DNA of 48,563 nucleotides from positions 1 to 48,563 of the forward strand of contig JASBSA010000157.1 in the NCBI GenBank assembly GCA_030149175.1, written 5' to 3'. A program made the position numbers and the translations under genes. A model generated the notes under the pieces. That model was not told the DNA's origin, searched no databases, and was given only the letters and a program-made list of their open reading frames with translations. The number at the start of each line of letters is the position of its first letter. The first letter of the stretch is position 1. Below, piece after piece: positions 14,442 through 45,243 of the stretch. This DNA comes from Winogradskyella sp. (lineage in GTDB: Bacteria > Bacteroidota > Bacteroidia > Flavobacteriales > Flavobacteriaceae).

Positions 14442-14462
14442 TCATAGAATTCCTAAAAAAGG

Positions 14463-16070: not shown

Positions 16071-16086
16071 GTGTTAATGTTTAGTT

Positions 16087-29767: not shown

Positions 29768-29841
29768 GGTCCTATAACTCAGTTGGTTAGAGTATCTGAC
29801 TCATAATCAGAAAGTCCCTGGTTCGAGCCCAGGTGGGACCA
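29768..29841 (+). tRNA. tRNA with CAU anticodon (elongator Met or Ile2), left copy
   Basis: A full cloverleaf of 74 bases: acceptor stem GGTCCTA paired with TGGGACC, anticodon stem TCTGA/TCAGA around loop CTCATAA, T-arm CTGGTTCGAGCCCAG, discriminator A. CCA is not encoded. G1-C72 pairing excludes an initiator. The C4-G69 and C5-G68 pairs agree with determinants of the lysidine synthase known from E. coli tRNA-Ile2, but Met versus Ile2 is not settled by sequence. This copy has host DNA on the left and element DNA on the right. Confidence 0.95.
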
Positions 29842-29842
29842 C
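29768..29842 (+). repeat. Left attachment repeat (attL)
   Basis: The 75 bases are identical to 45169-45243 and cover the whole tRNA plus one base. Upstream, the sequence stays similar for about ten more bases (ACCAAT then A or G). Downstream, it diverges at once. Confidence 0.9.
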
Positions 29843-29852
29843 TTTTTAAGGA

Positions 29853-29885
29853 AATCTGCCTTGTGTAAACAAGGTGGATTTTTTA
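29853..29885 (+). terminator. Terminator of the left tRNA, supplied by the element
   Basis: A 12-base-pair stem, AATCTGCCTTGT paired with ACAAGGTGGATT (two G-T pairs), with loop GTAA is followed by a T run. It lies just inside the element. Confidence 0.85.
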
Positions 29886-29968
29886 TTTTATCCCTTTAAT
29901 GATAAGGATTTCTAGAGTTTTCTACTTCATTGCTGATTTTTTGTAATAGTACCATAATCCCTAAAAAA

Positions 29969-29987
29969 GGTGTACAATTAGGTGTAC
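29969..29987. promoter_or_regulatory. Candidate integrase arm sites, left end
   Basis: GGTGTAC occurs twice in direct orientation (29969-29975 and 29981-29987). The first reads GGTGTACAATTAGG. A 12-of-14 match, GGTGTACTTTTAGG, lies at 45116-45129 near the right end. Also, TTTTTAAGGAAA and a CCTT-TGTAAA block occur both just after the tRNA (29843) and after these sites (29991). Arm-type binding sites or old attachment remnants are the likely reading. Confidence 0.4.
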
Positions 29988-30027
29988 CATTTTTTAAGGA
30001 AAACACCTTATGTAAAATAGCTGTAAA

Positions 30028-31242
30028 ATGAATTACAACAAGACAACAGTTTTATTCTTCTTACACAAAGTAAGGCTAAACAATCAAGGAACTTGCCCAT
30101 TAAGATGTAGAATAACTTACTTAAAAAAAAGAAAAGAGTTTTCTACAGGTATTTTTGTTAGTCCAAAAAGCTGGAACAGTAAAAAGCAAAAGTTACTTGA
30201 TAAAAACACCCAAGAAAAAAGCATTAATATACAGTTAAGCCTGATTAAACAAGAGATTAATCAGGCTTTTTTGTTTCTGCAAGTGAATAAAGAATTTTTT
30301 GATGTAGAAGATATATATCTTCATTACACAGGTAAAAGCATTAAGCAAGATGAAACTGTTCTACAAGTTTTTAAAACTCATAATGATAGGGTTGAAAAAC
30401 TAATAGGTAGAGAATATGTATTGCCTACCCTTTGGAAATTTAAACAAGCAAAAACACTACTAAAGGAATTTATATCTTATAAGTATTCCAAGAATGACTA
30501 TCAATTCAAAGATTTAGAATTAAAGTTCATTAAGGATTATGAGTTCTTTTTAAAATCTGAAAAGAAATTAGCTCAATCCACTATCTATAAAACCATTCAA
30601 AGATTCAGAAAAATCATTAAGATTGCAATTTCTGAAGGCTATTTAGACAAAGACCCTTTTATTCTTTACAAAAGCAAGAGATATAAACCTGAAGTGGTTT
30701 ACCTAACAGAAGAAGAGTTAAAATCTGTTGAAAGCTTTGTTTTTGAAGAAAAGAGGTTAGAAAGAACTAGAGATAGTTTTGTCTTTTGTTGTTATACTGG
30801 TTTAGCATTTTCTGAAATGGATTCTTTAAAAAAAGAGCATTTAAAAATAGGGTTTGATAAAAACCTGTGGATTCAACTTAAAAGGTCAAAAACAAGTAAA
30901 CTTATATCCATTCCTTTGTTACCAAAAGCAATTGAAATTATTGAGAAATATGATAGTTTTAATGAAATAAGAGTTTTACCTAAATTAAGTAATCAAAAGT
31001 TTAATAAAAATCTCAAAGAAATTGCAAGTAAGACTAAAATTAAAAAGAGACTTACACATCATATTGCTAGAAAAACTTTTGCTACTACTGTGTTGCTCTA
31101 TAATGATGTACCTATGGAAATAGTATCTGAATTGTTGGGTCATTCAAGCATAACTATTACAGAGGCTCATTATGGAAAGATTGTACAGAAAAAGGTAAGT
31201 GAACAGATGAAAAGTTTATCAAAGAAGTTAAATTCTAAATAA
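30028..31242 (+). CDS. Tyrosine recombinase (integrase), Bacteroidetes type
   Basis: The 404-residue integrase has an N-terminal arm-binding domain (about 8-60, ending WNSKKQKLL), a SAM-like core-binding domain (about 110-205) and the catalytic domain (about 220-400). Catalytic residues seen are Lys288, His345 and Arg348 (HHIARKTFAT), His372 (LLGHSS) and the nucleophile Tyr382 (EAHYGKI). The position of the first catalytic arginine is alanine (TGLAFSEM, Ala260), as is common in IntDOT-like Bacteroidetes integrases. It lies 186 bases from attL and reads inward. It presumably catalyses integration at the tRNA. Its stop overlaps the convergent HNH gene by eight bases. Confidence 0.93.
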   Translation: MNYNKTTVLFFLHKVRLNNQGTCPLRCRITYLKKRKEFSTGIFVSPKSWNSKKQKLLDKNTQEKSINIQLSLIKQEINQAFLFLQVNKEFFDVEDIYLHYTGKSIKQDETVLQVFKTHNDRVEKLIGREYVLPTLWKFKQAKTLLKEFISYKYSKNDYQFKDLELKFIKDYEFFLKSEKKLAQSTIYKTIQRFRKIIKIAISEGYLDKDPFILYKSKRYKPEVVYLTEEELKSVESFVFEEKRLERTRDSFVFCCYTGLAFSEMDSLKKEHLKIGFDKNLWIQLKRSKTSKLISIPLLPKAIEIIEKYDSFNEIRVLPKLSNQKFNKNLKEIASKTKIKKRLTHHIARKTFATTVLLYNDVPMEIVSELLGHSSITITEAHYGKIVQKKVSEQMKSLSKKLNSK

Positions 31243-32215
31243 CATAAACTTCCTTGTTATGCCATTCTAAGCTTTCAGGAGATGGATACCATTTAATGTT
31301 TTCTGGAAGCTTTATCTGTTTGCCATCAAATTGAGAAATTGAATAAACAGAATTACTTTCTGAGACAGTAGGTGAAACTCTTACTATATAGTCTTTGTTT
31401 ATTGTTATTAATCCTCTGTCAAATGCTCTGTGAAGATTTGGTGACAATGAAATACCATTTGGAATAGTATCATCTTTAGAAATACTGAAAGGGACAATAT
31501 GACAAGCATCTACCATTTGAGCATTAATGATTGTTTCTATCTTCATTTCAGAAATACAGCAGGAGTAATTATAGATTTTAGGAATATTTTTTTTAAATAA
31601 ACCACTTCTAACAAATATCTCTTCTTCAAATTCATCATCATTAAGCTTTGTTCTTAACTCAAAAATATGTTTTTGATATTCAGTTTTATTTTCATTTAGT
31701 AATTGACTTTCAATTTTAGATTCTGTTTCATTTCCTTGAATTAAATAATAATTGGCTTTGGTGTTGGGAAAATATTGATACAGAAGTAAATCTAAAAAAA
31801 AAGCAGAATGTATAGGGTTGCATAGGATTTTAAAAAGAACTTTATCTATTTCTGCAAAAGCAATGGTTTCATTAAGATTTTTAAAACTCTTTATGCTTTT
31901 AGAATTAGTTAATTTAAGCTCTAAACCTATTTTAGTAACCAAGTGCCAAAAAGGTTCACTTCTCATATGAAAAAAAGGAAGTGAAAAGTTTGATGTATGT
32001 TTAGTTTCAACCAGCTTATGCCAATTGTTCTTAAAAGCTAATAATAAATCTGTTGTTATGTAAATTCTATTAGTATTGATTTTTTCATTTTGGATTAATT
32101 CAATAATAGAAATTAGCAAAACAGGCTTATGAGGTGCTCTTCCAAGCCCCTTATTATAGCCTCTATTTAAGCTTTTAAAATAATTGGCATATATGCTGAC
32201 TGTTTTTTCATTCAT
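31235..32215 (-). CDS. HNH_2-family endonuclease, restriction-like
   Basis: The 326-residue protein has an N-terminal domain (about 8-140; RAPHKPVLLISIIELI, then NFSLPFFHMRSEPFWHL) and a C-terminal HNH_2 nuclease domain (CCISEMKIE, then DACHIVPFSISKDD and SLSPNLHRAFDRGL). This architecture is found in putative restriction endonucleases without a partner methylase. A GTG start at 32221 adds two residues; the ATG at 32215 is preferred. It lies 24 bases after the polymerase-like gene on the same strand, so they are likely co-transcribed. The target is unknown. Whether it cuts modified or unmodified DNA cannot be told. Confidence 0.8.
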   Translation of the reverse strand: MNEKTVSIYANYFKSLNRGYNKGLGRAPHKPVLLISIIELIQNEKINTNRIYITTDLLLAFKNNWHKLVETKHTSNFSLPFFHMRSEPFWHLVTKIGLELKLTNSKSIKSFKNLNETIAFAEIDKVLFKILCNPIHSAFFLDLLLYQYFPNTKANYYLIQGNETESKIESQLLNENKTEYQKHIFELRTKLNDDEFEEEIFVRSGLFKKNIPKIYNYSCCISEMKIETIINAQMVDACHIVPFSISKDDTIPNGISLSPNLHRAFDRGLITINKDYIVRVSPTVSESNSVYSISQFDGKQIKLPENIKWYPSPESLEWHNKEVYVI

Positions 32216-32239
32216 GACCACTAATATAGCTACATTTCT

Positions 32240-33712
32240 TTATGCAGACCAGCTTTCAACACTAAGAACAGGCTTAAATCCAATTGCTTCAAACAAAACC
32301 TCAGTTAGAACTTTATGGACTTTACCCTCATTACCTTTGGTTGTAACAATTGAATCATGAATTGTGTATATAGGTAAGTTTGGATACTCACATGCAATTT
32401 TTTTTGTTGCATTATCCAAAACTAGTTTAGCCTCAAAATTCTGGAGACTACATGCTAAAGCTCTATGGGCTCTTTTTTTGCCCTTTTTTATTTCATTAAA
32501 GATGTTGTAAACATCAGGAAATAAATCCTTAAATGCTTTCATGTATTTTTTATAACCAATAGAAGAGTTTTGACTGTAAATAGCTTCAATAACCCTTGTT
32601 TTGACAGCTTTTCTTAATGTAGCTCTATCATCAACTAAATCTAATTCTCCTATTTCATGCATGTAGTCAATGAATCTTTCATATAATTGCCCTTTTGAGA
32701 CAAGTTGAATGTACTCTTGAACATTTTTACTATCATAATAGAGCCAGAAAGAGAAGAGAATAGATTCATCAAAATCTTTATTATATAGTTTAATAGAATC
32801 TACTAATCCATATTTAATAATCAAATCAGGATTAAGGAAGGCTAATGACAAGTAAGGTTGAGAGTTTTTAATGTCAACAGCTACCAAATGTTGACCATCA
32901 TATCTTATAAACTGTCTCAAATCACTTTTAATTTGTGTTAATACAGTGTGCATTCTGCCAGCAGTTGTATCAATCTTATTTAAAAAGCTACTTTTGTGAA
33001 TTTTAAGTATCCCAATTTTCTTTAAATTATATCTATTTATAGCAGCACTATAGCCAATTTGTTCTGTTTCTGCTAAAAGTTGATTATGGATATAATTCAT
33101 TGCATTTGAGTAATCAATTGAGAGTTTACTGTCAAACCACTTTGTTAGATGCCCATATTCAGAAATATCATTATTAATCAATACTACTTTAGATTCACTA
33201 AAATCTAAGTGAAAATATTTAGAAATACTTTTTAGTAGTGTTTTTTTAGTGATATAACACTCCTTTACTGGAGAAAGGTAATTTACTGAAAATTTATAGC
33301 CTAAAGACTTCTCATTTGGAATATAAAAACCATCTGTCTCTAACACACCTATTTTAACAAAATACTCTAAATACTTGTTATAGTTCCTTACTCTCTTTTG
33401 AAGTAATTGAGCATTTAAGAATGTAAATGGATAGTTTTTCTTTTGCCATTTATAATGGCCAGACTTACTTTTTTTCTTATGAAATCTAATAGCAGTTATT
33501 TGATGAAGAATGTATATAGCCTCATCATTTTGGAACTTAAAGTTTGGTGGATAAACTTCTGTAAGTTTGTCCAAATTCACTTTTTCTGGGATGTAACAAG
33601 GAAAGCCTTGTTTACCAAACACTCTTGCCTGATTTACTCCTACAGGTGAGTTTTGCTTTGTTATTACCTCTGATTTTTCAAGAGTAAGAGGTTTTTCTTG
33701 GGTTTTTACCAT
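32240..33712 (-). CDS. Divergent family-A-like polymerase (PolA palm motifs)
   Basis: I do not recognise a named family, but the C-terminal half carries the ordered motifs of DNA polymerase I. Residue numbers below use the longer frame from the TTG at 33727. They are T-x-GR (TTAGR, 254-258), motif A with Asp285 (LVAVDIKNSQPYL), motif B R372-x3-K376-x7-Y384 (LRKAVKTRVIEAIY), a QGTAADII-like helix (LQNFEAKLVLD, 428-438) and motif C His457-Asp458 (YTIHDSIVT). Residues 1-240 show no exonuclease domain; 65-150 may be a winged helix. The ATG at 33712 is chosen because GAGGGGAG stands before it, giving 490 residues. It could replicate the element. A single-subunit RNA polymerase relative or inactive paralogue is possible. 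Confidence 0.72.
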   Translation of the reverse strand: MVKTQEKPLTLEKSEVITKQNSPVGVNQARVFGKQGFPCYIPEKVNLDKLTEVYPPNFKFQNDEAIYILHQITAIRFHKKKSKSGHYKWQKKNYPFTFLNAQLLQKRVRNYNKYLEYFVKIGVLETDGFYIPNEKSLGYKFSVNYLSPVKECYITKKTLLKSISKYFHLDFSESKVVLINNDISEYGHLTKWFDSKLSIDYSNAMNYIHNQLLAETEQIGYSAAINRYNLKKIGILKIHKSSFLNKIDTTAGRMHTVLTQIKSDLRQFIRYDGQHLVAVDIKNSQPYLSLAFLNPDLIIKYGLVDSIKLYNKDFDESILFSFWLYYDSKNVQEYIQLVSKGQLYERFIDYMHEIGELDLVDDRATLRKAVKTRVIEAIYSQNSSIGYKKYMKAFKDLFPDVYNIFNEIKKGKKRAHRALACSLQNFEAKLVLDNATKKIACEYPNLPIYTIHDSIVTTKGNEGKVHKVLTEVLFEAIGFKPVLSVESWSA

Positions 33713-33832
33713 ACTCCCCTCAACCAAGGGGTAACAACTACTGTAATTGTAATTGTTAGCTATAAGTGAAGTTGAAACTGAATAGAAAAACCACTAAATA
33801 TTCAGAGCACTCATTAGCTGCATTTGCATTAC

Positions 33833-33867
33833 AAAAATACAAAATTTGATAGAATTAACCTATCAAA
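33833..33867. promoter_or_regulatory. Divergent control region with palindrome
   Basis: TTTGATAG and CTATCAAA (33845-33852 and 33860-33867) form a perfect eight-base inverted repeat with a seven-base spacer. Next to it, on the minus strand, TATTTTTG (33832-33839) matches the -7 box and could drive the polymerase-like gene. The palindrome would then sit just upstream of that box and 29 bases before the ATPase gene on plus, so one regulator could govern both directions. Confidence 0.4.
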
Positions 33868-33895
33868 AAGTTAATAATTAATAAATTTTTTCAAT

Positions 33896-34759
33896 ATGGA
33901 ATTAAGAAAATCAGAAAGAAGAAATGCCAAGATTAAAATGGCATTACAAGCACCAAGTGGCGCAGGAAAAACTTACAGTTCACTACTAATTGCTAAAGGA
34001 CTTGTAAATGGTGACTTTTCAAAAGTTGCTATAATTGATACAGAAAATGGGAGTGCAGATTTGTATGCTCATTTAGGGGAATATAATGTGCTTTCATTGA
34101 AGCCACCTTTCTCACCAGAAAGTTATATTGAGGCAATTGATGTCTGTTTGAAAGCAGGGATTGAAGTCATAATTATTGATAGTATTTCTCATTGTTGGGA
34201 TTTCTTGATTGAGTATCATGCTTCTTTACCAGGTAACAGTTTTACCAATTGGAACAAGATTACACCAAGGCAGAAAGCTTTTGTAAATAAAATGCTTCAA
34301 GCCAATGCACACATTATTGCAACCATGAGAACTAAACAAGACTATGTTCTCAATCAAAAAGATGGAAAGTTCATTCCTGAGAAAGTTGGTCTTAAAGCAG
34401 TACAAAGAGATGGAGTGGACTATGAGTTTACCTTAGTATTTGACATTGATATCAAACACTTTGCTAAAGCTTCAAAAGACAGAACTGGACTCTATTCTGA
34501 TAAACCTGAATTTATTATCACATCAGGAGTAGGTAAGCAAATCAAAGAATGGTGTAATTCTGGAACTGACCTTGATGCAGTTAAGGAAGAGATTCAAAAT
34601 TGCTCAACAAATGAAGAGTTGAATGAGCTGTATCAAAAACATATAGTTTGGAAAGAGTTACTGAACCCAAATTTTATTAAAAAGCAACAAGAAATAAAAT
34701 CTAATCAATTGTCAAACCTAAATAATTTTAGTCAAAATGGAACTACAAATAGTCAATAA
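33896..34759 (+). CDS. Sak4-like phage-type RecA-fold ATPase
   Basis: The 287-residue ATPase has Walker A APSGAGKT (19-26), a strand with IIDTENGSADLYA (about 47-59) and Walker B EVIIIDSISHCWD (Asp96). It fits the phage nucleotide-binding/AAA_24 group that includes Sak4, short RecA-like proteins assisting single-strand annealing and replication. A low-complexity Asn/Gln tail ends it. The only CpG of the element lies in its Walker A codons (Gly22-Ala23). The next gene begins inside its last codons (23-base overlap), so they are coupled. It opens the plus-strand replication module. Confidence 0.78.
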   Translation: MELRKSERRNAKIKMALQAPSGAGKTYSSLLIAKGLVNGDFSKVAIIDTENGSADLYAHLGEYNVLSLKPPFSPESYIEAIDVCLKAGIEVIIIDSISHCWDFLIEYHASLPGNSFTNWNKITPRQKAFVNKMLQANAHIIATMRTKQDYVLNQKDGKFIPEKVGLKAVQRDGVDYEFTLVFDIDIKHFAKASKDRTGLYSDKPEFIITSGVGKQIKEWCNSGTDLDAVKEEIQNCSTNEELNELYQKHIVWKELLNPNFIKKQQEIKSNQLSNLNNFSQNGTTNSQ

Positions 34760-35720
34760 ATCAAAAAGTGCTAGCATAATAGAGGTCAAGGGGAGAGAAA
34801 TTCTTTCAAATCCTTTTATAGAGTCTAATACAAAAGAGATTAGTATAGATCATTTAAAGAGAGATTGTACTATACCTGTCTTTGCTAAGGATAATGAAAT
34901 CACTATAAGTCATCAGGATTTTATTGAAGGTGTTCAGCAGTCAGCAAAGGATGTTTTTAGCCATCAGGAGTTTTCTATGCCATCAATAAGGGTTTCCCAC
35001 ATCATTAAAGGAAGAACTCCAGAGGCTATAAGAAAACCAGCAAATGAACTACTGCCTCATGAAAAGACCATTTATTATGAAAGAATGGCTTTTAATATTG
35101 ACATTCCAACTATTCTGGAATCAATTTCTGGAAACAAATTGTCCTTATCAGTAGGAGGAGTAAGAGCTTACAACCAAGAGAACCTTTACTCAAAAAAATC
35201 ACTTGAAAAGTTTAAGGTCTTTGTAGGTTTCAAAAATTGGGTGTGTACCAACCTTTGTATATCTACAGATGGTTTTTCAGGAGAGATTAGAGCAAGTAAC
35301 ATAGATGATTTACAAAATCAGGTCTATCAATTGTTGTCTAGTTATAGTATGGAAAAGCACTTGGAACAGATGAGTAATTTACAGGAACAATTCTTAACTG
35401 AATCCCAATTTGCACAACTCTTAGGAAAAGCAAGATTATATAATCACTTACCTAAAAAGTTAAAGACTAATTTACCAGAATTGATTTTCAATGATGGTCA
35501 GTTAAATGCAGTAGCAAGAGATTATTATGAGGATGAAAGCTTCTGTAAAGATGAGGAAGGTAACATCAATCTTTGGAATGTTTATAACCTCTTTACAGGA
35601 GCTAATAAGAGCAGCTATATTGATTCTTTTTTAGAAAGAAATGTAAATGCTCACAACTTTACCAATTCAATTTCTGAAGCTTTAAAAGGCAACAGTAGTT
35701 ACCATTGGTTTTTGAGTTGA
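34737..35720 (+). CDS. DUF3871 family protein
   Basis: The 327-residue protein is of a family widespread on Bacteroidetes mobile elements: NPFIESNTKEISIDHLKRDC then PVFAKDNEITISHQDF near the start, and LSVGGVRAYNQENLY in the middle. It is distantly similar to DUF932 phage/plasmid proteins. The function is not known; the repeated company of recombination genes suggests DNA metabolism. It overlaps the Sak4-like gene and is followed by a strong hairpin. Confidence 0.72.
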   Translation: MELQIVNKSKSASIIEVKGREILSNPFIESNTKEISIDHLKRDCTIPVFAKDNEITISHQDFIEGVQQSAKDVFSHQEFSMPSIRVSHIIKGRTPEAIRKPANELLPHEKTIYYERMAFNIDIPTILESISGNKLSLSVGGVRAYNQENLYSKKSLEKFKVFVGFKNWVCTNLCISTDGFSGEIRASNIDDLQNQVYQLLSSYSMEKHLEQMSNLQEQFLTESQFAQLLGKARLYNHLPKKLKTNLPELIFNDGQLNAVARDYYEDESFCKDEEGNINLWNVYNLFTGANKSSYIDSFLERNVNAHNFTNSISEALKGNSSYHWFLS

Positions 35721-35721
35721 A

Positions 35722-35753
35722 AATATAGACCTCATAATTATGGGGTCTATATT
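35722..35753. terminator. Long hairpin between DUF3871 and the ATPase gene
   Basis: A 14-base-pair stem (AATATAGACCTCAT with ATGGGGTCTATATT, one T-G pair, loop AATT) starts two bases after the DUF3871 stop. There is no T run, so it may be a weak terminator, a processing site or a protein-binding cruciform that separates the replication module from the defence module. Confidence 0.55.
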
Positions 35754-35798
35754 GTATTAAAAGTAATTGAATTTGTAAATTTAAGTCAAATTAATTTT

Positions 35799-37376
35799 AT
35801 GAAACTTAGGATACAGAATTTCAGAAGCTTAAAAGATACTGGTGATATTGAAATAAAACCTATAACTATATTAGTAGGAAGAAACAGTTCAGGAAAGAGC
35901 TCTTTTTTAAGAACATTTCCTATGTTAAAGCAGAGTGTTCAAGAAAGAACCATTTCTCCAATTTTATTGTATGGTGATTATGTAGATTTTGGCTCTTATA
36001 AAGATATTAAACCACATTTTTCAAAAAAGTCTAATGAATTTTATGAACTGACATTTACTCTGAATAGTAAATATCTAGACACTAACTATTCAAAAAAAGC
36101 TGGTGGACTTGGTTTCAGAGGTAAGAAATTAAACAAGAATTTTGATTTTAAATACAGTTTGAAATTTAATGAAAATAGAAGGCAGTTAATTCAAATTTCC
36201 TGTATTAGATTTGAGGCTCTTGAGAACACAATTAAAATTGATTTAGACCAAGAGTCTAAAAAAATATCTTCTATATCTATAAATGGTGATAAACTGTATG
36301 GAGTTGAGGATAACCTGATTTTTTCTGATTATGGAGAATTTGATATAGATATCTATGCAGATAGAAAAAGTTCTGATAAATCAGAAAGATTTGTAAGAGC
36401 TAGAAGTTTCTTCACTCAGAGTATTATCAATTGTATTTCTAAGTATGTCCATGGAGCAACAAAAAACACAACCAAACTTAGAATTTTTAATAGCATATAT
36501 TTTGATGAAGATGAGGAGATGCTGAAATTAATGAAAGGCATTAGCTACCCTAGTGGTTGGAGGAAAAAAATAGCTAATTGGACTATTTCATCTAAAGAAT
36601 TTATTGAATTGAAGAACTATGTTTTTCTGCAACAATACATTGCATCAGCATTTTCAATAAACAACCACCTGAAAAATATTTTTTTAAATATGAACTATAT
36701 AGCCCCATTAAGGGCTACAGCAGAAAGATATTACAGAATACAACATCTTGCAGTGAATGAAGTTGACCCAAATGGAAAAAATCTACCAGCTTTTTTAGGA
36801 AGCTTAACAGATAGTCAATTACATAATTTTCAAAATTGGACTTATCAAAATTTTAGTTTTAAGACTAAAATATCAAAAATAGAGGGGCACTATTCTATTA
36901 AAATAGAGCATGATGGTGGATATGAGATTAATTTGTCAGATATGGGTTTTGGGTATTCTCAAATTTTACCAATTTTAACTCAAATATGGCATTCCACTTA
37001 TAGTAAAAACTATAGAAGAAATCCATTTTTATATTCTAACAATTTAGAAAAGATTATTGTAATTGAACAACCAGAACTTCACTTACACCCTGAATTTCAA
37101 GCAAAATTTGCTGATTCAATTGCAAAAATTATTACATTTTCCAAAAGAAGTGGGGTCTATGTAAAGTTGATTATTGAAACACATAGTGATATAATTATTA
37201 ATAGGCTAGGAGATTGTATACTGAATGAAAGTATATCAAATGATGATATTAATATTGTCATATTCAACAAAAAAAGTGAAATCAGTTCTACAGAAATAAG
37301 AACTTCACATTATGACAAAGAAGGTAATTTAGTAGATTGGCCATTAGGTTTTTTTCAACCTACATATTTATCATAA
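35799..37376 (+). CDS. ABC-type ATPase with DUF3696 tail, defence-type (AriA/OLD-like)
   Basis: The 525-residue protein has Walker A GRNSSGKSS (27-35) directly after MKLRIQNFRSL, a signature-like LSDMGFGYSQILP, Walker B IIVIEQPELHLHP (Glu423/Glu426) and an H-loop ETHSD (460-464). The end STEIRTSHYDKEGN then WPLGFFQ fits DUF3696. Such SMC/ABC-like ATPases pair with effector nucleases in anti-phage systems (OLD, AbiL, PARIS AriA). The next gene begins two bases downstream and carries TOPRIM-like motifs, so the pair is probably one sensor/effector system. It contains no CpG. Confidence 0.78.
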   Translation: MKLRIQNFRSLKDTGDIEIKPITILVGRNSSGKSSFLRTFPMLKQSVQERTISPILLYGDYVDFGSYKDIKPHFSKKSNEFYELTFTLNSKYLDTNYSKKAGGLGFRGKKLNKNFDFKYSLKFNENRRQLIQISCIRFEALENTIKIDLDQESKKISSISINGDKLYGVEDNLIFSDYGEFDIDIYADRKSSDKSERFVRARSFFTQSIINCISKYVHGATKNTTKLRIFNSIYFDEDEEMLKLMKGISYPSGWRKKIANWTISSKEFIELKNYVFLQQYIASAFSINNHLKNIFLNMNYIAPLRATAERYYRIQHLAVNEVDPNGKNLPAFLGSLTDSQLHNFQNWTYQNFSFKTKISKIEGHYSIKIEHDGGYEINLSDMGFGYSQILPILTQIWHSTYSKNYRRNPFLYSNNLEKIIVIEQPELHLHPEFQAKFADSIAKIITFSKRSGVYVKLIIETHSDIIINRLGDCILNESISNDDINIVIFNKKSEISSTEIRTSHYDKEGNLVDWPLGFFQPTYLS

Positions 37377-37377
37377 T

Positions 37378-38469: not shown

Positions 38470-39102
38470 TTATGTTAATGATGAAAAGTCTAACATAAGA
38501 TGTTTTATATAAATTTCTTTTTGAGATATAGTTGAATGTACAGATGTGAGGTCAGCAAAAGAAATAGTATTAGTAGAAACATTATTGGTGGTAATTTGTA
38601 CTATTTTTTTTAGATTTTCAGAAATGTTTATCTCTTTTACTATAAATCCAATCATGCAGTTTGATTTCAAATTAGTAGGATATTTTTCTTGAACAAACCT
38701 TAGTACACCATTTTCCACATACTTTTCATTAAGAGAGGTTGTTCCATCAAGTCTTTTACATTCAAGAACATAATAAGCATTGGTGTTTTTTGAATATGTA
38801 GTAGCATTATAAACAATTAAATCTGTCCTTCCTTCTTCAAAATAGTCTTCATTTATTTCAGGCACTTCAGGGTGAAATATATAAGGGGTTAACCCTAACT
38901 GCTCTCTTATTAAATTATTTTTTAAAAAATCCTTATATAATCTGTTTCTAATTTTATTTTCATTGTTTTCAATAGAATCATATCTTTCAATCATCATTTC
39001 AGAGCACTCAGAAATTTTAGAAAGTATAAAGTTAAACTCTCTGGTATAATATGCTTTTGCTTGAGTTTTAAACTTATTGGAGTTTAACATTTTCAATATC
39101 AT
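38470..39102 (-). CDS. PD-(D/E)XK nuclease, restriction subunit
   Basis: The 210-residue protein carries a PD-(D/E)XK site: GRTDLIVYN (Asp94) and YYVLECKRLDG (Glu114, Lys116), with a preceding helix NENKIRNRLYKDFL (Glu48-like). It overlaps the end of the methyltransferase gene by 29 bases (17 if the second ATG at 39090 is used), so its synthesis follows that of the methylase. That order protects the cell from self-cutting. It is the likely cleavage partner of the methyltransferase. Confidence 0.75.
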   Translation of the reverse strand: MILKMLNSNKFKTQAKAYYTREFNFILSKISECSEMMIERYDSIENNENKIRNRLYKDFLKNNLIREQLGLTPYIFHPEVPEINEDYFEEGRTDLIVYNATTYSKNTNAYYVLECKRLDGTTSLNEKYVENGVLRFVQEKYPTNLKSNCMIGFIVKEINISENLKKIVQITTNNVSTNTISFADLTSVHSTISQKEIYIKHLMLDFSSLT

Positions 39103-42067
39103 TAATTTTATGAATCTCCTCTATGAACTCTCCTAAATCTAGGTGAGCAACTGCTTCATGCCAGCATTTATACTCATTAGGCTTTATGACATAAAAACTA
39201 TTTTCCTCAAATCCCTTTATGTCTTTTTGAATAAATAAATTATCTGTTTCTTTAGTAAAGCTTAAAACAGAGAACTTATTTAAAATATCATCAAAAGACT
39301 TATTAAGCCATTTGATTTGATTAGTGTTTTCTGATGGGTTTTTTATTATTTTAAAAAACACTGCAATAGCAAATTTAGAATACCATATTTCAACTTCAAA
39401 AAAGTTGTTTTCATACCCATAAATATTATTAAAATGCTTAATAAAAACATCTGCATACTTGTTTAATAAGATGTTTTTATACTCAACTCTACCAAAGATT
39501 TTTTCAGTTTCTCTTCTTTTAATCATTGGTATAGTAATTTCTTGGGAGTATTCAAATAAGCTTATTTCTTGGCTATTAAAATTGAAGACCTTAAGAAGTT
39601 CATCATCAATTGAAGCTTCCAATGCAATTCTATGAAATTTCAACTCTTGCTTTTCTATATCTTCAAAATCTTTCAGATGAATTTGTTTTTCTACTTCTTC
39701 AATAAATGTTGCCAACTTAACTAGTTTGGTATTACTTCCAAAAGGAGTAGACCATTTTTCCACATCATGAGTTTCTTCTCTTTCTATTCCAATTGAAGAG
39801 CCAATTGAAGTGATGTAGTATGAGAAAAAATTTGAATTTAAAATGACCATAAAAGCTTTTAAAAAAGATATAGATTCATCATCTATGACTTTAATTGCTG
39901 TTAAAGAACTTTTAAAGACACAGTCTGAATAAGAAATTCCAGAAACAGATTTAAACTCCTTATTTGTACCACCAGTTATTAAAAGTGCAGGAGCCTCAAA
40001 TAGAGCCTTCTTTTTAGGCAGGTAGCCCACATAATCATAATTGAATAATTCTTTAGGAGTACTTACAAAATAAGGTGAAATATTTTTTTTATTAGTTGTT
40101 AGAAAAGGTTTTCCAATTAATTCTGAGGACTCATTTTTTTTATCTCCATCAACTAGTTTTAGACCTTGACCTCTAATAAATCTATCTGTATTAGAAACAA
40201 CTTCATCTATAGAATCAAACTCATCTTTAAGTCTCTTTATTAATTGAAAATCTAATATATTACCATATACTAAAGTTTTCCATAACCAATCATGTTTTAA
40301 GAACAAGCATTGTGGAATATTCTTTACATCATACTTTTCAATTACTAGCAATTTGAAAACATTAAAAAATAAATTAGGCTTTAAGGAGATATGATTTATT
40401 AAGTCATTTGTATTATTCTTTTTTGATTTTGAGAAGAAAAGTATAGATGCTGGTGCAACTGCTTTATCATTTGACTTGTCAAAAATATAATGCCTGACTG
40501 AGGATAGTTCAAACACTTTCCTCAATGAATTATTATTCAAGAAATACTCTCTAAAAGCATCCCCATTTAAATTGTATAATACCTTACTTGTGACAATAAA
40601 AGCACACTCTTCAAATGTATAATCTTTAACTTTTATTAAAAAAGCTTGAGCAATCTCTTTACTACTAATTAAGTTTTTTAGTCTCTCTTCTTTTTGGAGC
40701 TTTTTAATATATGAAATATATGAATCTTGTTCTTTAGATAGATTACCCCATGGTGGGTTGCCTATGATAAACTGAAACTTTTTTTTAGTTAACATATTTT
40801 TATCATTGAAAAAATCATCAACAAAAAAATTAGTGTTAATTAATTCAGGAAATTTGAAGCTTGAAATATCAGGAGGAGTTAGATAATCCAATAGAGTAAT
40901 ATAAAGTGAGAATATTGCAACATTCACTGCATTTTCATCATTATCAATTCCAAAAATATTATCCTTAAGTAACTTTCTTAATGCTTTTTTATATTTAACA
41001 ATATCATCTTCATAATCTTGATTCAAATCTTGGTACTGATGAATGATTTTTCTTAATGTCTCTACTAGAAAGATTCCTGAACCACAAGCAGGGTCTAAAA
41101 CCTTACAATTGTATGAAGACTTATTTTTTTTGAAATATTGTGATACTGTATCTTTTTGTATATAGTCAACCAAAAAAAGAGGAGTATAATATGCTCCTTT
41201 ATCTTCTTGACCTGATTTCCCAATAAAAAATTCATAAATATGGCTCACCAATTCAATAGGAATTATTGAAAAGTCATAAATATCAAACAATGAGTATTGT
41301 CCTGTATTGAGGCTAATTCCTTGAAGAAACCATTTTATATTTTGAAGAGTATCTAATGAAACTTGAAGTAATTCATCACTGTCAACAGGAAATAGATTCC
41401 CATTGAACTCTTTTTCTAAATAGTCAAAAAACTGGTAAGTACCTCTTTTTGAATTTAAAATCTCAATTAAATCATCATTAGTAAAAGGTCTATTGTTTCC
41501 TTGATATTTTACTACTACCTTTCTATCAATCAAGTATCTAATAAAAATAATCCTACCAATTAGAAAATTAGCAGATTTAGATGATACATTAGTTGAGATA
41601 AGTTTTCTTCTTAAAACTTTAATGTCTTCAAGTAATTTATCATCAACCTTTGTTTTATCCTTTAATTTTTGCTGATACTTTTTCCAAGTAACCCCAGTTA
41701 TTAATTTAAAATATTCAAAATCACTTATATTGTCTTTGTCTGTTAGTATTTCAAGTTTTCTCTCTTGTTTTAAGAAAGAAAAGCCATTATAAATATGTGT
41801 TTGATTATTCTTGGTAACAAAAACAACAGGAGACTTATTGAAATTCCAACAATCTTTAGAGACTTTCTCTATACTTTCAGGATTATCAAAAAAAAGAATT
41901 AAAGGTTCATCTCCAAACAAATAAAATGCTGTTGGTTTTATTTTTTCATGGATAATATTTTTAATTCTCTTAGGTAAATTAGAATGCTCTAGCCAATCTT
42001 TATCTGAAGTGAAGGTTACTCCATTTTCTTTAGATAGACCAAGTTTATTTAAAATGTCTTCAAGCAT
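39074..42067 (-). CDS. Large N6-adenine DNA methyltransferase
   Basis: The 997-residue enzyme has a methylase core in the middle: motif X-like GAYYTP (291-296), motif I LDPACGSGIFLVE (324-336), a helical segment with NIFGIDNDENAVNVA and motif IV FIIGNPPWG (433-441). The target-recognition region is C-terminal (about 600-990). The layout is that of Eco57I/type IIG methylases, but the N-terminal 250 residues show no PD-(D/E)XK nuclease I can see; the nuclease is the separate downstream gene. The specificity is unknown. It lies in the element's defence cargo, convergent to the ATPase/TOPRIM operon. Confidence 0.85.
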   Translation of the reverse strand: MLEDILNKLGLSKENGVTFTSDKDWLEHSNLPKRIKNIIHEKIKPTAFYLFGDEPLILFFDNPESIEKVSKDCWNFNKSPVVFVTKNNQTHIYNGFSFLKQERKLEILTDKDNISDFEYFKLITGVTWKKYQQKLKDKTKVDDKLLEDIKVLRRKLISTNVSSKSANFLIGRIIFIRYLIDRKVVVKYQGNNRPFTNDDLIEILNSKRGTYQFFDYLEKEFNGNLFPVDSDELLQVSLDTLQNIKWFLQGISLNTGQYSLFDIYDFSIIPIELVSHIYEFFIGKSGQEDKGAYYTPLFLVDYIQKDTVSQYFKKNKSSYNCKVLDPACGSGIFLVETLRKIIHQYQDLNQDYEDDIVKYKKALRKLLKDNIFGIDNDENAVNVAIFSLYITLLDYLTPPDISSFKFPELINTNFFVDDFFNDKNMLTKKKFQFIIGNPPWGNLSKEQDSYISYIKKLQKEERLKNLISSKEIAQAFLIKVKDYTFEECAFIVTSKVLYNLNGDAFREYFLNNNSLRKVFELSSVRHYIFDKSNDKAVAPASILFFSKSKKNNTNDLINHISLKPNLFFNVFKLLVIEKYDVKNIPQCLFLKHDWLWKTLVYGNILDFQLIKRLKDEFDSIDEVVSNTDRFIRGQGLKLVDGDKKNESSELIGKPFLTTNKKNISPYFVSTPKELFNYDYVGYLPKKKALFEAPALLITGGTNKEFKSVSGISYSDCVFKSSLTAIKVIDDESISFLKAFMVILNSNFFSYYITSIGSSIGIEREETHDVEKWSTPFGSNTKLVKLATFIEEVEKQIHLKDFEDIEKQELKFHRIALEASIDDELLKVFNFNSQEISLFEYSQEITIPMIKRRETEKIFGRVEYKNILLNKYADVFIKHFNNIYGYENNFFEVEIWYSKFAIAVFFKIIKNPSENTNQIKWLNKSFDDILNKFSVLSFTKETDNLFIQKDIKGFEENSFYVIKPNEYKCWHEAVAHLDLGEFIEEIHKINDIENVKLQ

Positions 42068-42312
42068 TCTTTTTTGATGGAAAAATTAACTTTAAAGATA
42101 TATCTAATTTTTTTTAAAAAAAATTTTATACTCAAGAAATAGCTCATTTGCAATTTACCCTCTCAAACACCCCCACCCACTTTTGGATTGGGAAACATCC
42201 CTATGCCTTTTGGATTCAAGACAAAAAATTGACAGCAGTAAATTTATCAAGGTGATAGCTGATGTTTTCTTCTGTCAACAGAATCAAATGTTTAACTCAA
42301 AAATTATTTATT
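42068..42312. other. 245-base divergent gap with C-rich stretch and repeats
   Basis: There is no gene. It holds a C-rich run (near 42159-42180, ACCC/ACACCCCCACCC), two direct CTTTTGGATT copies about 28 bases apart, and an inverted pair TTGACAG (42229) / CTGTCAA (42272). It should contain promoters for the methylase (minus) and the small gene (plus). It may also serve as a replication or transfer signal. Confidence 0.4.
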
Positions 42313-42687
42313 ATGGTAACTGTTATTGGATATGACAAAAGACTATCAGAAGATGGTAGAGAATTTTTCACACTAACCATTCAAGGTGGTGTAGAAGTAG
42401 TGCAGTCTCAAAATGGGAATTTATATATGACTGCCAGAAAAACAAGCATTCCTTCAACTTTTGATGAAGAGGGTTGCAAATTAGCTGTTGGAACACAAAT
42501 TCCTGGCAATATTGAAAAAGTAGCTTGTGAAGAATATGAGTATGTAAATAAAGATACTGGGGAGGTAATTTCTCTTTCACATACCTATCAATATGTTCCA
42601 GAGGAAAAGAAACAGGAAAAGCAAAGTTCAATGCCTGAATTTATGCCTGTTGACTTTGAACAGAATGTTTCTGTAATGGCTCAATAA
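42313..42687 (+). CDS. Small hypothetical protein of the replication module
   Basis: The 124-residue product starts at the ATG 42313 (MVTVIGYDKRLSEDG); an earlier in-frame ATG at 42262 adds a poorly fitting leader. It is beta-rich in its first 100 residues and has an acidic, Gln/Pro-rich tail (EEKKQEKQSSMPEF). That shape recalls single-strand-binding proteins (OB fold with acidic tail), but no motif proves it. It lies before the hairpin region and the RadC-like gene. Confidence 0.45.
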   Translation: MVTVIGYDKRLSEDGREFFTLTIQGGVEVVQSQNGNLYMTARKTSIPSTFDEEGCKLAVGTQIPGNIEKVACEEYEYVNKDTGEVISLSHTYQYVPEEKKQEKQSSMPEFMPVDFEQNVSVMAQ

Positions 42688-42693
42688 TGTCTT

Positions 42694-42818
42694 TTCATGT
42701 CATGACTCTATATATAGTAGTTGTGACATGAATTTACATTTTATAACAATTTGTGATTTTATCTATATAGGAGAGAATCACAAATAGTACTACTAATGAT
42801 TTTATACCATTAGTAGTA
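42694..42818. repeat. Three consecutive inverted repeats
   Basis: TTCATGTCA/TGACATGAA (42694-42702, 42724-42732), TTTGTGATT/AATCACAAA (42750-42758, 42776-42784) and TACTACTAATG/CATTAGTAGTA (42788-42798, 42808-42818) stand in a row in a 240-base non-coding gap. Arms are perfect at 9, 9 and 11 bases. The first may end the upstream gene, but three in a row suggest a replication origin or a structured RNA. Confidence 0.7.
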
Positions 42819-42927
42819 ATTCTACTTTTCACTTACATGTGAGTTATCAAAAATTACCTCATTTATATCTTTTTTGGTGATATAATTTTATTCATACATT
42901 AATTAATATAGCTAAATATCAATCTTA

Positions 42928-43377
42928 ATGAAATTAAATGCAATTGCTGAAATTCAGATTAGCTACTCAGCAAAAGTGGCTAAACAATTCAGGATAAAAG
43001 TAAATAGTAGTGAGGATGCATATACCTCTTTTCTGAGTTCATGGAACCAGAACCTAATTGAACTTCAAGAGGAGTTTAAAGTGATGTTGCTCAACAACTC
43101 TAATGAGGTACTTGGAATACATAATTTGTCTAAGGGAACCATTACAGGAACAATAGTGGATGTCAAATTGGTTTTTGCCATTGCTTTAAAGGCATGTGCA
43201 TCAGCAATCATTTTGGCACATAACCACCCTTCAGGAAATCTTAAGGCAAGTCAAGCAGATATATCTTTGACAAGAAAAATCAAACAATGTTCAGACTTTT
43301 TGGATATTAAGCTTCTTGACCACTTGATTGTAACCAAAGATGGTTACACCAGTATGGCTGATAAAAATCTAATGTGA
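42928..43377 (+). CDS. RadC-like JAB-domain protein
   Basis: The 149-residue protein has the JAMM metal site H98-N-H100-P-S-G with Asp111 ten residues on, and a likely catalytic Glu near 48-49 (LQEEFKVMLL). It also has the RadC pattern LSKGTITGTIVDVKLVFAIAL. Short RadC proteins without the helix-hairpin-helix domain are common on mobile elements of Bacteroidetes; their biochemical role is unsettled. It is convergent with the repressor gene. Confidence 0.88.
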   Translation: MKLNAIAEIQISYSAKVAKQFRIKVNSSEDAYTSFLSSWNQNLIELQEEFKVMLLNNSNEVLGIHNLSKGTITGTIVDVKLVFAIALKACASAIILAHNHPSGNLKASQADISLTRKIKQCSDFLDIKLLDHLIVTKDGYTSMADKNLM

Positions 43378-43398
43378 TAAGTTAGAACTTTAGGAGTA

Positions 43399-43653
43399 TT
43401 AATTTTTATCTGAAGAATCTCTCATTTTCTGTAAGTCAGAAAAGTCAAATATTTCTTTCAATGGTATATCAAGAGCAACTGCTATCTTATTTAGAGTGGA
43501 TATTGTAGAGTTCACATTGCCAGCCTCTATTCTACTCATATTTGACTTTTCAAAATTACATTTTGCTGCAAGAACCTGTTGAGAAATATTGTGCTTATCC
43601 CTGAGCATTTTTATTCTCCTTCCTATCAGTTTATGTAGCTTATCAACAGCCAT
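43399..43653 (-). CDS. XRE-family transcriptional repressor
   Basis: The 84-residue protein has an HTH of the Cro/CI type in residues 8-65: GRRIKMLRDKHNISQQVLA, FEKSNMSRIEAG, then TISTLNKIAVALDIPLKEIF. No second domain is present. Its ATG is one base from a perfect palindrome that overlaps the divergent promoter, so it likely represses itself and the neighbouring lipoprotein. Confidence 0.88.
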   Translation of the reverse strand: MAVDKLHKLIGRRIKMLRDKHNISQQVLAAKCNFEKSNMSRIEAGNVNSTISTLNKIAVALDIPLKEIFDFSDLQKMRDSSDKN

Positions 43654-43654
43654 G

Positions 43655-43722
43655 GGGTTATCTTATTTGATAACCCAAAATTTCAATTATATTTGTGTTA
43701 ATCAGTTATCACAAATGATAAC
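43655..43722. promoter_or_regulatory. Twin operators and divergent promoters of the repressor/lipoprotein pair
   Basis: O1 is GGGTTATC-N6-GATAACCC (43655-43676); O2 is GTTATC-N6-GATAAC (43705-43722). The shared core is GTTATC-N6-GATAAC. On plus, TTTG (43666-43669, inside O1) and TATATTTG (43688-43695) are 18 bases apart; O2 covers the probable start of transcription. On minus, TATAATTG lies between the operators with TTG inside O2. Repressor binding should therefore shut both directions. Confidence 0.8.
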
Positions 43723-43732
43723 TAATATTATT

Positions 43733-44647
43733 ATGAAAAAAATCATATATGTATTAACCTCTTTTGTCATTTTCTCTTGTAATACAGAAAATCAAAGTAT
43801 AGAGGGTTATTACAAAAAAATCAACACACATAAATTATCAAGTCCTTCATTATATCTTTTTAGAAATGATACTTTAAGAATCACCTCTTCAAGTGGCATA
43901 GAATCATACTATTTATGGTCAAAAAAGAAGGAGAGATATTATAATCTTGATAATACTAAGAAAGGTAAACTAGGTTATTCTTATGGTGGGGCTTTCTATA
44001 AAATTGACTCTAAGCACATCACTTACAAACTTACTGAAGATGAAATTAAGTCAAACATACAAGAAGATTTATACAATGAAAGTGATACTGATGATATCAG
44101 AGATATGGCTGTTTTTCTTTTAAATGAGATTGGGACAGATACTTTAATGAAAATATCAGAAAATGAATTTAATCAATATGCTAATCATTTTTTAAGCAAT
44201 GAAAAGGTAAGAATAGACTATCATGGTTTGAGATTAGACCTGCCTAAAGCATGGAGTACAGAAAAAGTTGAAATTGTCAAAGACAGAGTATTTCAAGTAA
44301 ATTCTAAGAATATTAACCAATCAAATAGAAAAGGTATAGTATTTACTTTTGGAAATGAAGATGTATTTGGAAATTCTATTGAAAATTCTATTGAGAATTT
44401 TAAGAGTAATTTGAACAAACCAGGGGTTGTATTTCAAAGCATAAAAGATTCAGAGTATAAGGGAATAGAAGCAAAAGAATTGCCTTATGTTATCAATAAT
44501 GAGGTTATTAAAAAAGTGGTTGGCAAAGTGGTATTTTTCAAAGTTTCAGATATATCTTTTGCAGTTGATATCAAGTCTAATAATCTAGATGAAGAGGAAT
44601 TCAAAGATATTGAAGATAGTTTTAATTTCAACATAAGACATTTTTAG
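43733..44647 (+). CDS. Unknown lipoprotein of the element
   Basis: The ATG at 43733 (MKKIIYVLTSFVIFSC) gives a lipobox at Cys16; the longer frame from 43589 would run through the operator region and the repressor gene and is rejected. The 304-residue protein has an N-terminal part (IEGYYKKIN to about 180) and a C-terminal part (from VRIDYHGLRLDLPKAW) without a known family. It is regulated by the adjacent repressor. An envelope role such as superinfection exclusion is a guess based on context. Confidence 0.7.
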   Translation: MKKIIYVLTSFVIFSCNTENQSIEGYYKKINTHKLSSPSLYLFRNDTLRITSSSGIESYYLWSKKKERYYNLDNTKKGKLGYSYGGAFYKIDSKHITYKLTEDEIKSNIQEDLYNESDTDDIRDMAVFLLNEIGTDTLMKISENEFNQYANHFLSNEKVRIDYHGLRLDLPKAWSTEKVEIVKDRVFQVNSKNINQSNRKGIVFTFGNEDVFGNSIENSIENFKSNLNKPGVVFQSIKDSEYKGIEAKELPYVINNEVIKKVVGKVVFFKVSDISFAVDIKSNNLDEEEFKDIEDSFNFNIRHF

Positions 44648-44667
44648 ACAATTAAATATTTTCTAAC

Positions 44668-44694
44668 AACCACCTCATAGTAGGTGGTTTTTTT
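44668..44694 (+). terminator. Terminator of the lipoprotein gene
   Basis: AACCACCT/AGGTGGTT stem with a six-base loop followed by TTTTT, 21 bases after the stop. It also shows that an ATG at 44684 is not a real start for the next gene. Confidence 0.85.
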
Positions 44695-44707
44695 ATATCC
44701 AATAGTT

Positions 44708-45115
44708 ATGAGAATAGACTTTTTACCATTTCAATTAGGCATGCAATATGAGAATTGGGAATTTGATTTAGATGCTGGTAAAGATTTGATAATTTGTGAG
44801 AAGTATAAGTATATTAAAGATGATATTTTAGAAATATTAGGAGTGCCTGTGAGAAATATTTATCTTTATTTCAATGCTGATATTTTAGTAAGAGTAGATG
44901 TGTCTTTCCAAAAAGGAACACAACCTAAAACTTTTATTGATTTAGCAGTAAGCTTAGAAACAAAATATGGGAGACAGTTATTGTTTTCTAATAATGAAGA
45001 ATCAACACTTTATAAAAAATGGAAAGGTGTTAAGAAAAGCCTCTTTCTAAAACATTTTTTAGATAATAACTCTGTTTCAATTATATTAACTAAATATAAA
45101 TATATTAACCTATAA
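44708..45115 (+). CDS. Hypothetical protein, 135 residues
   Basis: The chosen ATG at 44708 (MRIDFLPFQLGMQYENWEF) lies just after the terminator; the earlier one at 44684 falls inside it. No signal peptide and no family recognised. The acidic, beta-rich middle and the small size recall immunity or antitoxin-like proteins, but this is not evidence. It is the last gene of the element, 53 bases from the right tRNA. Confidence 0.55.
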   Translation: MRIDFLPFQLGMQYENWEFDLDAGKDLIICEKYKYIKDDILEILGVPVRNIYLYFNADILVRVDVSFQKGTQPKTFIDLAVSLETKYGRQLLFSNNEESTLYKKWKGVKKSLFLKHFLDNNSVSIILTKYKYINL

Positions 45116-45129
45116 GGTGTACTTTTAGG
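45116..45129. promoter_or_regulatory. Candidate integrase arm site, right end
   Basis: GGTGTACTTTTAGG matches 12 of 14 positions of the left-end GGTGTACAATTAGG, in the same orientation. Confidence 0.35.
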
Positions 45130-45168
45130 ATACCCTGTAATATTATTAGCTTTAAGTAATAACCAATG

Positions 45169-45242
45169 GGTCCTATAACTCAGTTGGTTAGAGTATCTGA
45201 CTCATAATCAGAAAGTCCCTGGTTCGAGCCCAGGTGGGACCA
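45169..45242 (+). tRNA. tRNA with CAU anticodon (elongator Met or Ile2), right copy
   Basis: Identical in all 74 bases to the copy at 29768-29841, with the same complete cloverleaf. It has element DNA upstream and host DNA downstream. A TAATATTA box at 45138-45145 resembles the TAATATTG of the left copy, but there is no clear TTG before it, so expression of this copy is uncertain. Confidence 0.95.
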
Positions 45243-45243
45243 C
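45169..45243 (+). repeat. Right attachment repeat (attR)
   Basis: The 75-base direct repeat of 29768-29842. The first base after it differs (G here, T on the left), and CpG reappears exactly at this junction (45243-45244). Confidence 0.9.

Follow-up and report, generated by a model that had tools for sequence, protein, structure and literature searches.

The stretch analysed here, 48,563 nucleotides of contig JASBSA010000157.1 from Winogradskyella sp. (assembly GCA_030149175.1) and hereafter called the window, carries an integrative element of 15,327 bp (positions 29842-45168) in which the dinucleotide CG occurs a single time, at 33961 by direct count, in exact agreement with the initial annotation of this DNA. 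Depletion of CpG is a trait of the widespread mobile family to which the element belongs and is not explained by host composition; that the loss fits selection or avoidance better than mutation is well supported. The family is defined by a tyrosine integrase, a Sak4-like ATPase and a DUF3871 protein in one tRNA-adjoining segment, and the window element has all of these. The window comes from an assembly of 2.5 Mb in 160 contigs that is 75% complete.

The CG void in the window

The observed/expected ratio (O/E) of CpG is 0.00 in the element, whose GC content is 28.7%, versus 0.77 in the left flank (651 CG over 29.8 kb) and 0.76 in the right flank (73 CG over 3.4 kb), so that, in line with what was first claimed, the host DNA on both sides is not equally CpG-poor. 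GpC is common (O/E 1.07 within the element), which bears out the earlier statement that the effect is specific to CG. The nearest CGs beyond the void, at 29824 and 45225, each lie within one copy of tRNA-Met, and the edges of the void are the positions of these two copies, which ARAGORN and repeat comparison identify as a 75-bp exact direct repeat (29768-29842 and 45169-45243).

The initial annotation expected several hundred CG. When the 14 open reading frames (ORFs) of the element were back-translated with the codon usage of the left-flank ORFs, 291 CG were obtained (sd 13.6; minimum 260 in 200 runs) against the one observed. The sole CG arises where a Gly codon (GGC) meets an Ala codon (GCA) within the Sak4-like gene, which corrects the claim that no codon pair in the element joins C to G. 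TpG and CpA are mildly raised (1.11 and 1.22 in the element versus 1.00 and 1.08 in the left flank). Such an excess had been proposed as the mark of deamination and its absence as the mark of selection; the mild excess is there, and the proposed test is ambiguous, since synonymous replacement also yields TpG and CpA, so that codon-phase and close-pair tests are needed.

CpG depletion across the DUF3871-Sak4 family

Relatives were collected as 94 family loci, made up of 80 genome-contig loci, 12 viral-contig loci, the window and a syntenic element designated G247; the 80 genome-contig loci are the best 80 of at least 570 confirmed relatives, and the sample leans to the window's relatives. A search with DUF3871 gave matches in 16 of 395 genomes of the class and 45 of 397 of the family. 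The single-protein DUF3871 scan of viral contigs gave no match, the 12 viral loci coming from another scan. The G247 element shares integrase, polymerase, Sak4, DUF3871, type IIG and RadC genes in the same order with the window element, with proteins 40-70% identical, and has 5 CG over 13.6 kb. Across the 94 loci, DUF3871 is present in 94, the integrase in 88 and Sak4 in 86.

Low CpG is the rule in this family. Within 3 kb on either side of DUF3871, the CpG O/E is below 0.4 in 69 of the 94 loci, below 0.2 in 29 and below 0.06 in 8, the other 25 not falling below 0.4; within 1.5 kb on either side of the gene, it is below 0.40 in 77 of 92 loci (80 genome and 12 viral). In a list of 40 DUF3871 loci (gene ±1.5 kb where present), from which the fragmentary loci L014-L017 (O/E 0.50-0.70) were excluded, the two lowest, one of them the window, have a CpG of 0.01 and the rest span 0.11-1.04. 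The first 3 kb of flank, taken at 77 loci, have a median CpG of 0.86 with none of the 77 below 0.4; these flanks were chosen as lying outside the CpG-defined segment, which tilts the contrast slightly toward depletion of the element, a bias that the relaxase and phage controls described below do not share. Element CpG is unrelated to host CpG, host GC and GATC avoidance (61 elements). Host-wide CpG poverty was dropped as an explanation on the flank values and the missing correlation with host CpG.

The void is sharp at element ends and spans swapped cargo too. A Chryseobacterium viscerum element (L126) has no CG start from 4802 to 14754, a void more extreme than that of the window element, and one from Chryseobacterium oryctis (L138) has a single CG between 4796 and 19008. 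Eight loci are in this near-zero state (CpG O/E at most 0.06), and on the DUF3871 tree of 94 rows they require at least five gains or losses, all forced by well-supported branches, in a count that uses labelled rows only and leaves out 46 ungrouped ones. A CpG-based segmentation needing at least 7 kb sorted the loci into 8 extreme, 26 mid and 33 weak elements; some of these CpG-defined segments contain a little flank, and the 27 of 94 loci outside the groups are absent from the codon, k-mer and phase tests, while the fixed-window count uses all 94.

Relative to the mean CpG of their own element, the core families stand low (p143 0.58, Sak4 0.67, p141 0.72, RadC 0.74, DUF3871 0.77, integrase 0.80), and several cargo and replication families exceed the mean at 1.1-1.5 (24 of 30 families listed); the genes long resident in the element seem to be purged most. 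CpG is also lower with two of the replication modules, the polymerase and a helicase-like one of ~823 aa (median 0.18 over 45 loci), than with two others (median 0.28 over 30 loci; p 1e-4, uncorrected for kinship).

Several single loci deserve mention. An element of Patiriisocius marinus (L122; segment O/E 0.15) contains, at 11411-17376, a block of 5,965 bp that lacks CG altogether and includes genes named by eye as McrB/McrC-like; the block looks imported from a CG-free relative. The nearly CG-free L138 carries, at 14686-16290, cargo with a cytidine/dCMP-deaminase domain that may serve defence by depleting nucleotides. Two CpG-poor DUF3871 elements (L168 and L170) lie on IMGVR_UViG_2847593706_000001, an 86-kb contig classed as viral. 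MT839478.1 (L019), a 4.3-kb record from human faeces listed under Bacteriophage sp., has relatives of Sak4, DUF3871 and RadC at a CpG O/E of 0.09, and from it the DUF3871 family seems to reach gut bacteria.

Other mobile DNA and phages

Twenty-nine relaxase loci from the same bacterial family have a pooled CpG of 0.87 (range 0.42-1.14), a GATC of 0.80 and a GGCC of 1.50, and six terminase loci have a CpG of 0.53-1.08. The phrog_2 search returned mostly weak, short matches; the six with an E of 1e-14 or lower (L209-L214) were kept and the others dropped. The FCL-2 terminase scan matched two contigs, each with 100% identity across the query. The seven genomes with near-zero elements gave 65 integrase matches, 30 of which were taken as loci; 27 of these have a CpG of at least 0.48, and the three low ones are the integrase of the window element and two whose positions make them the integrases of the elements in Myroides albus and C. 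viscerum. In nine Flavobacteriia phages, each taken over its first 12 kb, the pooled CpG is 0.89 (range 0.59-1.11), with GATC at 0.34 and GGCC at 0.44.

Over three scans, 91 viral-contig loci have a median CpG of 0.85, the two lowest coming from the contig with the pair of DUF3871 elements. A single further virus-like locus among the 91 (L343) falls below 0.4; it is on a 129-kb viral contig, IMGVR_UViG_3300032225_002102, whose fetched 16.7 kb have 24% GC and a CpG O/E of 0.32. CG loss as a general property of mobile DNA in such hosts was dropped, as relaxase loci, phages and viral contigs are not so depleted.

Selection or mutational decay

The initial annotation offered three causes without choosing: decay in hosts that methylate CpG, selection against CpG, and descent from a CpG-poor lineage. 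Selection is supported and decay largely is not, while descent agrees with the CpG poverty of most DUF3871 elements and only pushes the question back. The ratio of CG inside to outside is alike across codon phases 1-2, 2-3 and 3-1, at.020,.031 and.037 in extreme elements,.175,.159 and.144 in mid elements and.258,.284 and.260 in weak elements, and trimmed intergenic DNA is depleted as well (CpG O/E 0.04, 0.28 and 0.33, respectively). The void is therefore not a matter of codon bias alone, as had been stated from the window, and this candidate was dropped.

Decay of methyl-cytosine, in which a long stay in CpG-methylating hosts would have turned CG into TpG and CpA by deamination, would agree with the mild TpG/CpA excess of the window element, with faster turnover at CG sites and with an excess of A at NCN codons in the mid group (IN-OUT +0.246±0.065, z 3.8), a sign that neither extreme (-0.09±0.12) nor weak elements (0.01±0.06) show. 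Where a four-fold site precedes G, however, C is nearly gone and T is not raised over A: the IN-OUT log odds of T over A are -0.05±0.11 in extreme, -0.10±0.06 in mid and -0.16±0.05 in weak elements, where full conversion of C to T predicts about +0.24 (calculated). Deamination cannot convert Arg CGN codons to AGR and should therefore spare CGN, yet these are lost as fully as the other phases (CGN 8 of 864 Arg codons in extreme elements versus 122 of 307 in their flanks). Between the sister elements L126 and L138, with 919 differences over 7.3 kb, C is involved in 0 of 79 differences before a shared G versus 314 of 599 before other bases, and G in 2 of 92 after a shared C versus 241 of 567 after other bases. 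Over 13 close pairs, transitions at CG are raised 2.32-fold (2.01-2.80) relative to other C/G sites and transversions 4.88-fold (3.67-6.86); selection raises both classes of change and deamination only transitions, so the stronger rise of transversions favours selection. The suggested look for CpG methylases in the hosts gave a partial answer, in that the C5-methylase family PF00145 has no match in 4 of the 7 genomes bearing near-zero elements, the window genome being only 75% complete. CG was not found to be lost preferentially to TG or CA, the contrary signs being the NCN codons of the mid group and the mild TpG/CpA excess, and we regard methyl-cytosine decay as a most improbable cause. Beside the NCN codons, whose A excess runs in the direction predicted by decay, two further observations speak against the selection reading: intergenic CG is less depleted than genic CG in the mid and weak groups (genic 0.02, 0.16 and 0.25 in extreme, mid and weak elements), and four chromosomal-flank pairs also show excess turnover at CG (1.61 for transitions and 2.23 for transversions).

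Restriction-site avoidance

In the window element GATC occurs once against 40 expected and GGCC twice against 6.5, a scarcity that the initial annotation missed; CCGG does not occur at all against 6.5, while AGCT occurs 60 times against 40. The pooled elements agree, with GATC at 0.17, 0.15 and 0.11 in the extreme, mid and weak groups versus 0.53 in flanks and GGCC at 0.13, 0.08 and 0.18 versus 0.84. Relative to relaxase loci and the chromosome, depletion of common 4-bp palindromes is thus found for GATC and GGCC; AGCT, likewise a common 4-bp restriction site, is over-represented in the pooled elements (1.5-1.7). This avoidance of GATC and GGCC is like that of the phages and suggests exposure to restriction in double-stranded form. 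Six-base palindromes are mixed: GGTACC, CTGCAG and GATATC are avoided by a Markov measure and less clearly by base composition (by the latter GATATC stands at 0.35-0.36 in mid and weak elements, 0.76 in extreme ones and 0.77 in flanks, and GAGCTC is not avoided).

Avoidance of CG has another form. In mid elements all NCGN contexts, palindromic or not, lie at 0.11-0.22 (CCGA 0.11, CCGG 0.14, ACGA 0.20), among the CG tetramers of weak elements CCGG stands lowest, and the surviving CGs have somewhat AT-richer surroundings and no clear motif. The trimers GAT, ATC and GGC are near normal in the elements. CG, which is avoided in every context, is therefore a separate unit atop restriction-site avoidance, and its depletion is uncorrelated with GATC avoidance (rho 0.05, p 0.70).

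Genes of the window element and mobility of the family

The window thus holds an integrative element that has recombination genes of phage type and brings a replication gene of its own. The features of this element are as follows.

29768..29842, plus strand: tRNA-Met(CAT), left copy, attL side and left edge of the void (ARAGORN; 75-bp repeat)
29843..45168, no strand: CpG-void integrative element, 1 CG in ~15.3 kb (CG count, repeat, codon null)
30028..31242, plus strand: tyrosine integrase (PF00589, E 2e-17; phrog_1)
31235..32221, minus strand: HNH endonuclease-domain protein, cargo (PF13391, E 4e-11; PADLOC HNH)
32240..33727, minus strand: predicted divergent family-A polymerase-like protein, replication module (no Pfam match; motifs, model, Foldseek)
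33896..34759, plus strand: Sak4-like AAA_24 ATPase, core, bearing the sole CG (PF13479; phrog_1366, E 2e-73; phrog_124, Sak4-like)
34737..35720, plus strand: DUF3871 protein, core (PF12987, E 1e-137)
35799..37376, plus strand: AAA_15 ATPase, candidate defence cargo (PF13175; PADLOC NsnB, PDC-M55A)
37378..38469, plus strand: partner gene, weakly PDC-M55B-like, cargo (PADLOC, E 6e-4)
38470..39102, minus strand: 210-aa gene beside the type IIG gene, found too in the G247 element and one G444 element
39074..42067, minus strand: type IIG restriction-methyltransferase, cargo (PADLOC PDLC03603, E 9e-227; PF07669)
42262..42687, plus strand: small protein p141 (cluster C3, 53 of 94 loci; no Pfam family above cut-off)
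42928..43377, plus strand: RadC-like JAB-domain protein (PF04002, E 3e-39)
43399..43653, minus strand: XRE/Cro-type regulator (PF13443)
43589..44647, plus strand: lipoprotein-like ORF, start uncertain, scanned from 43700 (ORF; no family above cut-off)
44684..45115, plus strand: p143, end gene common to part of the family (cluster C8, 17 of 94 loci; no Pfam match)
45169..45243, plus strand: tRNA-Met(CAT), right copy, attR side (ARAGORN; 75-bp repeat)

The 495-aa product of 32240..33727 is predicted to be a divergent family-A polymerase-like protein and would be the element's own replication gene product: residues D285, N288-S289-Q290 and H457-D458 are invariant in 14 aligned relatives, and its structural model (predicted local distance difference test, pLDDT, 79.7) matches DNA polymerase I chains in Foldseek (best E 2.9e-6; 86 matches at 0.001 or below). 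For the model of the DUF3871 protein (pLDDT 72.6), BFVD gave matches to phage proteins (E 3e-6 and weaker), several of them named DUF932, and a fold search of the PDB gave none at E 0.001 or better; the protein is probably structurally like phage DUF932 proteins. The AAA_15 ATPase and its weakly PDC-M55B-like partner (35799-38469) may together form a defence system of two genes. In the 14 genes Pfam gave no conjugation family, and no relaxase, capsid, terminase, packaging or capsid-remodelling gene was found in the 14 by Pfam or in the 10 of them scanned with PHROGs.

Of 27 segments compared for direct repeats, 14 are bounded by repeats of 22-75 bp, many of which, judged by eye, lie in the 3' ends of tRNAs. 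Elements from Winogradskyella wichelsiae and Olleya (L105 and L107; from 6495) are 95.6% identical over 13.8 kb and their left flanks 76%, which points to a recent transfer between genera.

What keeps CG out

The explanation that we propose, and to which we give an even chance, is purifying selection on the extrachromosomal form of the element by a CG-recognising nuclease or restriction activity in recipients or helpers. The element is a member of a mobile integrative family (integrase, Sak4, DUF3871) inserting at tRNA genes, and CG is kept out of it in every codon phase, mostly also between genes, and most of all in core genes. Because the chromosome on both sides is untouched, selection would act outside the chromosome: after excision, during replication by the element's own recombination and replication genes, or on entry into a new cell in double-stranded form. 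The agent, the step of which we are least sure, may be a nuclease or restriction system reading bare CG, at a guess from recipient hosts or a helper phage. Each CG would be a small cost, with members spanning host-like CpG, the 0.1-0.4 of most, and values down to 0.00; these graded values, with the CG left in the tRNA attachment (att) sequence, argue for a cost per site and not for death. Avoidance of GATC and GGCC would be a separate, phage-like trace of ordinary restriction.

The CG loss could also be the sum of many ordinary restriction systems, CG lying within many recognition sites and wide-ranging elements therefore losing it, an account that fits the avoidance of GATC (0.11-0.17), GGCC (0.08-0.18) and some 6-bp palindromes and the rank of CCGG in weak elements. 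It is unlikely, since palindromic and non-palindromic CG contexts are about equally depleted, the GATC/GGCC trimers are near normal, CG depletion is independent of GATC avoidance, and phages that avoid GATC and GGCC keep their CG. If instead the element encoded or triggered a nuclease that attacks phage or host DNA at CG, and were itself CG-free for self-immunity, the strong effect in only the DUF3871 family among the mobile DNA sampled would be accounted for. The satellite nickase NixI is reportedly a precedent for sequence absence as self-protection. NixI is a nickase that hinders phage replication (PMC8844924). Such self-immunity we judge quite unlikely, because no candidate nuclease is common to the depleted elements, the att site retains CG and DUF3871 relatives of higher CpG exist; a universal nuclease gene in the family was dropped when only DUF3871, Sak4 and the integrase proved near-universal in the 23 segments that end inside their locus. 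More doubtful still is that recipients restrict CG methylated at C5 by modification-dependent (type IV, McrBC-like) systems, the elements spreading through hosts that differ in their C5 methylases: 8 loci have McrC-like genes (cluster C20) and 5 have C5-methylase-like genes (cluster C33), both named by eye, and the McrB/McrC-like cassette of L122 is wholly CG-free, but AGCT is over-represented, PADLOC does not call that cassette McrBC, pooled McrC genes are not below their own elements (1.19) and phages show no such CG loss.

Selection by an external CG-recognising agent has its own difficulties. CpG is at least 0.4 in 15 of the 92 DUF3871 loci measured over the gene ±1.5 kb, certain cargo families (C28, C33, C42, C48 and C50) have as little CG as the core, and element CpG increases weakly with element GC (rho 0.31, p 0.015; 61 elements). 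An excised circle would keep the tRNA CG of the att site, so CG is not lethal. No nuclease was identified, and none is a common candidate in the 23 segments, some of which may be parts of larger elements (DUF3871 in 23, Sak4 in 21 and integrase in 19, then p141 in 13, XRE in 13 and RadC in 10). The nine phages of related hosts, also double-stranded, are not CG-poor, though a general host CG nuclease should hit them, which favours an agent tied to a helper or to a particular lifestyle.

Elements of this type are a known kind; what is new, as far as we have seen, is the near-total purge of CG, and no account of CpG-void bacterial elements was found in the open-access literature, in keeping with the remark in the initial annotation that it knew of none described in this group. 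Like Bacteroidota integrative and conjugative or mobilizable elements, the window element has a tyrosine integrase, tRNA att repeats and defence cargo; unlike them, it has no relaxase or conjugation Pfam family, and the relaxase loci keep their CpG. Phage satellites, as generally described (phage-inducible chromosomal islands, PICI; P4-like; PICI-like elements, PLE), resemble it as small integrated elements with phage-type recombination and replication genes and defence cargo, and DUF3871 elements show phage-like restriction avoidance; it differs from them in having no capsid, terminase or packaging gene within the searches given above, and we know of no helper phage for DUF3871 elements. As in phage restriction-site avoidance, the elements shun GATC and GGCC; unlike the phages, which keep their CG, they avoid a bare dinucleotide whatever its context, at the extreme to zero. 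Vertebrate RNA viruses are depleted of CpG under CpG-sensing immunity (ZAP), and the likeness lies in context-independent loss of CG with synonymous recoding; here, in contrast, a bacterial integrated DNA element is concerned, with intergenic DNA hit too. To our knowledge, no CpG sensor for bacterial elements has been described.

Sequence avoidance is a fossil record of attack. With CG purged from a mobile family, in some members to zero, and not from its chromosomal neighbours, Bacteroidota may contain something that reads CG when DNA is foreign or has been excised. It is possible, at somewhat less than an even chance, that Bacteroidota cells or the phages that move these elements possess a previously undescribed activity recognising bare, unmodified CG in extrachromosomal DNA; just as tentatively, such an activity would be a prokaryotic counterpart of CpG sensing, which the elements answer by removing CG, in some lineages almost completely. 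The family supplies natural CG-free versions of restriction and defence genes, and finding the reader of CG might bring to light a new principle of immunity and account for the spread of defence islands from genus to genus.

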